Below, in pieces: positions 34,134 through 34,614 of a stretch of DNA of 64,000 nucleotides (the first letter of the stretch is position 1; the number at the start of each line of letters is the position of its first letter). The notes under the pieces are model-generated. The model was not told the origin of the DNA. It did not search any database and saw nothing but the letters and a program-made list of their open reading frames with translations. Origin of the DNA: Chryseobacterium sp. Leaf180 (lineage in GTDB: Bacteria; Bacteroidota; Bacteroidia; Flavobacteriales; Weeksellaceae); the NCBI RefSeq assembly GCF_001424585.1, contig NZ_LMPJ01000011.1:161561-225560 (forward strand). Direction: 5' to 3'. A program made the translations under genes and the position numbers.

Positions 34134-34170
34134 GCTGATAGCTATTGGCTAATGGCAGATGGCTTTCAGC
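34134..34170. repeat. Left flank of the S23 cassette: GCC/GGC short repeats
   Basis: Directly after the groES stop, a run of GCT-TTGGC-type words (GCTATTGGCTAATGGC, then GATGGCTTTCAGC). Its reverse complement, with AGCCA-rich words, resembles the right flank at 34562-34614, so the inserted gene is bordered by loosely inverted repeats. Confidence 0.5.
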
Positions 34171-34184
34171 GTTGAAAATAGAAA

Positions 34185-34541
34185 ATGAGAGATTTTAAGA
34201 AATTTGAAGTTTGGCAATTAAGTCATCAGCTGACTTTGAAAATTTACAAAACAACCAAGGTTTTTCCGAAAGAGGAAATTTTTGGATTGACCTCTCAGAT
34301 CAGAAGATCATTCGCTTCCATCGGATATAATATTTCGGAAGGAAGTGGCAGGAATTCAGATAAAGAATTTGCAAATTTTATTAACATCGCACTAGGATCA
34401 TCCAACGAAGCCGAGAACCAATTAATACTTTCTAAAGATTTAGAATACCTTTCAGAAAAAGATTTCCAAAACCTTTCGGAAGAATTAACTATACTTAAAA
34501 AAAAGCTTGTCACCCTCTGGAACAGGCTTAACGGAAATTAA
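34185..34541 (+). CDS. Four-helix bundle protein (S23/IVP family) inserted between groES and groEL
   Basis: A 118-residue all-helical protein of the family first seen as the intervening-sequence protein in 23S rRNA genes. Typical features are [16 protein letters not shown] at the start, the [20 protein letters not shown] segment (about 40-60) and the [10 protein letters not shown] helix. Its function is unknown; structures of relatives form pentamers. It lies between groES and groEL on the same strand with AGCCAAAAGCC-type repeats on both sides, which suggests a mobile cassette rather than a chaperonin component. Confidence 0.88.
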
Positions 34542-34561
34542 AATCAAATTATAAATTAATA

Positions 34562-34614
34562 CAGCGAATCGCTAAAGCCAAAAGCCAAAAGCCAACAGCA
34601 ATTCGCCAAAAGCA
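34562..34614. repeat. Right flank of the S23 cassette: AGCCAAAAGCC repeats
   Basis: Tandem AAAGCCAAAAGCCAAAAGCC words bounded by GCGAAT and ATTCGC, which are inverted. It ends 8 nt before groEL. See the left flank at 34134-34170. Confidence 0.55.

Follow-up and report, generated by a model that had tools for sequence, protein, structure and literature searches.

The window, i.e. the whole stretch of 64,000 nucleotides of Chryseobacterium sp. Leaf180 DNA analyzed here, harbors groES (33855-34133; Cpn10, PF00166, 113.5 bits) and groEL (34622-36247; Cpn60_TCP1, PF00118, 264 bits) and, between them, an intact open reading frame of 118 amino acids starting with ATG (34185-34541). All three reading frames are located on the + strand. 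The encoded protein is an S23 protein, i.e. a four-helix-bundle protein of the 23S rRNA intervening-sequence type: it scored 130.7 bits against PF05635 (23S_rRNA_IVP; curated cut-off 33.8) and 127.3 bits against TIGR02436 (cut-off 24), which places it within both families, and its relatives of solved structure are 2GSC (Xanthomonas XCC0516, E 1.3e-19) and 2RLD (E 2.4e-9). A first-pass annotation had placed an S23-type gene between groES and groEL and delimited the element to 34134-34614; both gene and interval were confirmed. Between groES and groEL, the + strand has no other reading frame of at least 60 amino acids and the opposite strand has one of 72 amino acids; no transposase is encoded within the element.

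The S23 gene is bordered by two arms, given here for the + strand. The left arm (34134-34174) is periodic with 7 bp and inverted relative to the right one; it was identified by the inverted repeats I1 and I2, by the predicted fold and as part of a lag-7 pair. The right arm (34565-34613) consists of tandem AGCCAAA-like heptamers and was identified by an inverted repeat, by a lag-7 array called at 34567-34603 and by the predicted fold. Inverted repeats were located in the 51 bp 5' and the 80 bp 3' of the reading frame; the longest one listed for the region 33400-35200 joins 34141-34173 to 34581-34613, with 76% complementarity over 33 nt. The arms reached a match score of 13.5 as compared to a mean of 7.0 (sd 1.2) for dinucleotide shuffles; this score was attained by none of 2,000 shuffles and by none of 2,127 windows of identical layout placed every 150 bp along 324 kb of the own genome. 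The inverted orientation of the GCC-rich flanks, as first described, was thereby confirmed; the AGCC repeats are also present, but are more exactly arrays of AGCCAAA-like units with a period of 7 bp. A scan of the same 324 kb with similar thresholds yielded two inverted lag-7 pairs, namely the groE spacer and the atpA-atpG spacer; no inverted pair was obtained for any other lag included.

In the predicted fold of 34134-34621, 32 base pairs join 34134-34174 to 34565-34606 and leave the S23 gene in the loop. The predicted folding energy of the arms was -34.6 kcal/mol as compared to -16.0 kcal/mol (sd 3.5) for 200 mononucleotide-shuffled arms. S23 genes are known from intervening sequences (IVS) of 23S rRNA genes in Coxiella and Leptospira. 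The groE spacer shares with such IVS complementary ends capable of forming a stem and an S23 reading frame in sense direction. It is located between groES and groEL, not in a 23S gene, and the window gave no rRNA match at the Rfam gathering threshold. Neither a transposase within the groE element nor, among the other S23 loci of the genome, related copies with the same ends were found, as would characterize a transposon or MITE.

Upstream of groES, a direct repeat TCTGCCAAAATTT occurs in two copies 31 bp apart (33744-33787); similar pairs are visible 5' of groES in relatives, and the repeat is perhaps a site for a heat-shock regulator. The stretch 3' of groEL (36324-37922) contains two reading frames without Pfam match at 21-29% G+C as compared to about 38-46% in groEL, and is likely a recent acquisition. 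A second 7-bp array, TTTAATC-like, is located at 61740-61816 in an intergenic region without an S23 gene; an inverted partner was seen by eye just 5' of it and was not called by the inverted-pair scan. The sole Rfam match in the window at the gathering threshold is a Flavo-1 RNA (RF01705) at 58674-58749.

Inverted 7-bp arms around S23 genes

Of the genomes searched, PF05635 was present in 96 of 98 at genus level, in 85 of 196 at the level of the order and in 212 of 296 at that of the phylum. From genus, order and phylum and from a scan of named genomes, 238 S23 reading frames were collected; 234 had full flanks, and 89 were kept at 70% protein identity. The loci were drawn from best-match lists, and the sample therefore favors high-scoring S23 genes. 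Co-directionality with both neighbors was observed for 69 of 82 S23 genes; seven of the 82 ran against both neighbors and five against the downstream gene.

At the 89 loci, the left flank matched the inverse of its own right flank with a mean score of 13.8 as compared to 7.8 with other loci (best of 10,000 permutations, 8.74), and in 30 loci the own partner outscored all other 88 flanks, as compared to about one locus expected. The 99% level of cross pairs was exceeded by 34 of 89 S23 flanks and by none of 176 windows shifted by 450 bp. Direct, i.e. non-inverted, similarity of the flanks was slightly raised too, with 15 of 89 loci above its 95% level. The strongest period was lag 7 in about 46 left and 44 right flanks of the 89 loci (ties shared), followed by lag 14; the lag-7 peak was absent from the S23 coding sequence and from sequence 350-480 bp away. 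Under a stricter joint criterion, which 59 of the 89 loci failed, 30 loci were found at lag 7 and three at lag 8; lags 5, 6, 9, 10 and 11 yielded no locus.

PF05635 is found at six loci of the own genome, of which one is interrupted by stop codons. The S23 proteins of these loci are 27-42% identical to groE S23, and their arms differ; by eye, inverted 7-bp patterns are visible in the flanks, the unit changing from locus to locus. A single repeat sequence common to S23 genes is ruled out, the heptamer varying by locus. The flanks expected from the first-pass annotation at other S23 genes thus recur as the same kind of layout, whereas the repeat sequence is different and each locus has its own heptamer.

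It is highly improbable that S23 is an ordinary operon gene of vertical descent whose flanking repeats arose by neutral slippage. Such neutral repeats are rejected on the locus-specific matching of left and right arms (13.8 as compared to 7.8, n = 89), even though two papers describe heptamers as frequent units of tandem repeats in bacteria (PMC4679880, PMC4692102) and the two old S23 clades at groE described below would fit an ordinary gene.

The other-phylum loci, with the phylum taken from the record title, comprised cyanobacterial plasmids, Azospirillum, KSB1, and Nitrospinota and Parcubacteria MAGs. They were pruned from 35 to 22 by removing the duplicates of five loci, four Saprospiraceae loci from one MAG and the loci of another MAG, which is titled Limnohabitans but shows flavobacterial-looking neighbors and may represent contamination. 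Own pairs scored 13.0 as compared to 7.6 (n = 22; best of 5,000 permutations, 10.6), 11 of the 22 were the best in their row, and lag 7 led in 17 left and 13 right flanks. An inverted arm match was absent (score of 8 or less) at L457-L460, L445, L439 and L448; at the cyanobacterial locus L457, two arrays are arranged in direct, not inverted, order (direct score 62.5). The Azospirillum locus L467 lies inside a 23S rRNA gene, and its arms, with AGGACGG and ATGACAG heptamers, match at 31 of 36 positions. A large share of Bacteroidota S23 genes is surrounded by inverted 7-bp arms with a site-specific heptamer, as are some in other phyla, one of them inside a 23S rRNA gene.

On cyanobacterial plasmids, S23 genes annotated as four helix bundle protein were also seen within CRISPR operons (L457, L462, L463), with cas6 and cas4 as neighbors in two plasmids and cas10 and a Cmr3-family gene in one. 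Among 50,697 phage records, no match to the S23 protein of the window was obtained at E 1e-3, phage Avd being too distant for such a search.

For the 23S insert of Coxiella, one study describes GACAGAT heptamers 5' of the reading frame (three copies, or two in some strains, and a further degenerate one), complementary ends with an RNase III site at the first repeat, and decay of the IVS protein gene as reported by its authors (PMC4990558). Taking these published ends and heptamers together with the Azospirillum arms, rRNA inserts and the groE operon insert share their anatomy, i.e. an S23 reading frame between complementary ends with heptamer arms. The groE insert differs in its location in a protein operon, in its arm sequence and in the conservation of S23, as compared to the decay described for Coxiella.

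Intergenic arrays of heptamers have been published as well, with the units GGGAATC in Xanthomonas and GGGGAYT in Nostoc (PMC4692102) and TAACTGA (PMC4679880). PMC4692102 counts 70 and 75 inverted convergent array pairs in two Xanthomonas genomes and lists groES among the repeat-associated genes. In these published arrays, one heptamer is used per genome, whereas S23 arms use one per locus; the word S23 is absent from the texts of both papers. Among the open-licence papers listed in the literature searches, none was seen to connect S23 genes with heptamer arrays or to describe the anatomy common to rRNA and operon inserts.

Spacers of the groE, carA-carB and atpA-atpG operons

Across the genus, groES was found in 97 of 98 genomes, and the 97 spacers were read and assigned to types by length and short text patterns. 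An S23-type spacer of 446-507 bp was present in 46 of the 97 genomes; 40 of these have an open reading frame of at least 90 amino acids, five are visibly broken and one was recovered separately. S23 is therefore not fixed at the groE site, in line with the first-pass annotation. TCTAA-type spacers (80-113 bp) occurred in 26 genomes and GTAC-type spacers (92-119 bp) in 22, together 48 genomes without S23; by eye, these two types are mostly inverted heptamers of other families. The three relic spacers have, by eye, just the right AGCC array left. By rough patterns, both spacer halves belong to one heptamer family in 95 of 97 genomes, relics being counted as one-family despite the lost left array; the exceptions are two short TCTAA spacers.

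Of the 97 typed genomes, the comparison of spacer types to gene trees used 96 for groEL and 90 for atp; the linkage scan covered 92 and the atp comparison 89. On the groEL tree, spacer type required 41 changes as compared to a shuffled mean of 43.5, a value as low being reached in 39 of 200 shuffles; the TCTAA type alone was mildly clustered (27 of 500). On the atpA-atpG tree, 42 changes were required as compared to 42.0 after shuffling (116 of 200). Pairwise identities of groEL, groES, atpA and atpG gave rank correlations of 0.67-0.71 (four pairs tried), and spacer and groEL identities within the types gave correlations of 0.16, -0.04 and 0.07. The nearest neighbor shared the spacer type in 37 of 89 genomes by atpA (28.6 expected, sd 5.0) and in 32 by groEL. 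Some linkage of spacer type to groES remains, since nearest neighbors were alike in 48 of 89 with about 29 expected.

Genomes G048, G062 and G071 are about 98% alike over four gene pieces and carry three different spacer types. L103 and L121 have identical 95-bp spacers and groEL genes of 92.7% identity; counted backward from the stop codon, their groES genes differ at bases 1, 13 and 19. Similarity linked to spacer type did not reach significance in either flanking gene, i.e. over the 46 bp at the groES 3' end (z 1.6) and the 40 bp at the groEL 5' end (z -0.5; 92 rows). The groE spacer of the genus thus exists as alternative cassettes (S23 with AGCC/AGCT arms, TCTAA and GTAC), which are scattered over the groEL and atpA trees. 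Apparently, groE spacer alleles were exchanged between species. Exchange of short tracts explains the discordance between spacers and genes; strong spacer constraint could also mimic recent sharing of old alleles. Both the scatter on two trees (groEL, atpA-atpG) and the lack of S23 in 51 of 97 genomes speak against an ordinary operon gene.

A tree of 210 distinct S23 proteins placed the 61 groE proteins in two pure clades of 47 and 14 members, the latter including two loci from another family of the order. These clades indicate that groE S23 has long resided at the site and is no cassette that jumped in recently; repeated new insertions at groE, of which no sign was seen, are rejected. The median dN/dS of groE S23 was 0.06 (52 pairs), with dS of about 1 and near saturation. 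Of 11 S23 groups sharing a downstream gene (at least three members each), seven need one change on the tree. The number of changes per downstream gene was three for groE, two for NuoD-like, nine for thiolase-like (18 members) and four for acyl-CoA-dehydrogenase-like genes (five members); the names thiolase, acyl-CoA dehydrogenase and NuoD were assigned by eye. Spread of S23 to new operons over longer times, from separate lineages before the thiolase-like and acyl-CoA-dehydrogenase-like genes, is suggested rather than proved by this tree. The interpretation given in the first-pass annotation, a mobile cassette, is partly supported: the element has no transposase and groE S23 falls into two clades, but the whole spacer allele seems to move between species.

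The carA-carB spacer was read in 30 of 60 genomes searched. It was occupied by an orthologous S23 gene in 15, by another PF05635 gene in three, by an IS200-like transposase gene in two and, as judged on reading, by none of these in 10. The arms of the 15 S23 genes are of AGATTTC type in nine and of AACCAAG type in six. The two arms match if taken from one type (mean scores 13.7 and 9.9) but not if the types are mixed (6.9 and 7.7), which indicates that both arms differ together around one gene; one of the six AACCAAG-type loci scores just 6.5 with its own partner. This coordinated change of the arms is a further argument against an ordinary gene with repeats of neutral origin. Among species, the spacer is variable (L421, L425 and L427, L432, L435), with two kinds of S23 arms, another PF05635 gene and an IS200-like Y1 transposase, and looks like a hotspot.

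The presence of an IS200-like (Y1) transposase gene in the same carA-carB spacer of other genomes would fit an explanation in which the arms form the inverted termini of an element mobile at the DNA level, S23 assists in its transposition or retro-copying by an enzyme provided in trans, and RNA pairing is incidental. The several separate S23 lineages before thiolase-like genes (18 members, nine changes) point in the same direction, as does the resemblance of S23 to Avd, the accessory protein of diversity-generating retroelements, which is assigned to the same fold family (4DWL, 2GSC) in PMC10053308. We regard this explanation as possible but on the whole doubtful: the element is without transposase, the groE S23 proteins form two clades, and the six S23 loci of the own genome, given their protein identities and differing arms, are unlike recent copies.

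REP/BIME elements with RAYT transposases likewise have a small protein gene between inverted repeats and gene-less copies elsewhere. S23 resembles them as a small gene within inverted repeats with gene-less copies, but it is not a tyrosine transposase and its arms are locus-specific. The atpA-atpG spacer contains an inverted heptamer-like hairpin without S23 in the 90 genomes read (own genome, L142:10996-11069; L317-L406); the analysis covered 90 of 97 genomes, and the arms were judged by eye and by folding of the two main families. At least three sequence families were distinguished, with sizes of 59, 27 and 3 of 89 classed. This spacer tracks phylogeny better than the groE spacer, neighbors being alike in 74 of 89 with 47.5 expected.

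These gene-less hairpins raise the possibility that, as in REP/BIME, an intercistronic hairpin is the functional part and tunes the ratio of the neighboring messages, S23 being an optional passenger in the loop; we consider this quite unlikely. The 48 of 97 groE spacers with heptamers and without S23 argue for it, as do the atpA-atpG arms of 90 genomes with 90 G-U as compared to three A-C cells over the two main families, although the atp structures were chosen to pair well and the counts are biased accordingly. An optional passenger is difficult to reconcile with purifying selection on S23 (dN/dS 0.06) and with S23 copies in 96 of 98 genus genomes; furthermore, folding of groE types B and C gave a weak consensus structure or none.

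Proposed role of the arms and of the S23 protein

We lean, with slightly better than even confidence, toward the explanation that the groE spacer is the counterpart, in a protein operon, of the rRNA intervening sequence, i.e. an S23 gene in the loop of a heptamer-armed hairpin. The arms would pair in the groES-S23-groEL co-transcript, and RNase III would cut the arm stem by analogy to 23S IVS. This cut would separate the groES and groEL messages, so that the insert would be tolerated. The conserved S23 protein may bind nucleic acid, perhaps its own arms, and spacer alleles would spread between species via short-tract recombination.

Mismatches in the S23 arms were G-U-compatible in 54 and of A-C type in 64 cases (61 loci), i.e. 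without G-U excess; in related groE arm pairs (n = 65), the mismatches numbered 41 and 75, respectively. These counts provide no support for selection on RNA pairing at S23 arms and would rather speak against it. A DNA-level explanation is therefore also conceivable, and the missing G-U signature (54 as compared to 64; 41 as compared to 75) favors the mobile element with terminal inverted repeats described above.

A broader proposal, which we judge unlikely, is that heptamer-armed S23 genes constitute one widespread class of elements of which 23S IVS are a minor branch. S23 would write or maintain the arms, perhaps aided by a polymerase supplied in trans, in the way Avd acts with its reverse transcriptase, and spacers would be exchanged as short cassettes leaving the flanking genes untouched. 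The resemblance of PF05635 to Avd makes a role of S23 in templated copying conceivable by analogy.

The fold of S23 proteins is solved and they have no known function; 23S rRNA intervening sequences have no settled origin according to PMC4990558. If the anatomy is shared, an S23 reading frame between inverted, locus-specific 7-bp arrays would connect rRNA inserts to operon spacers in several phyla. The question posed by these loci is what maintains the matching of the arms while their sequence changes. Here, the groE spacer is a natural experiment, with close sister species carrying S23 or either of two other heptamer spacers.
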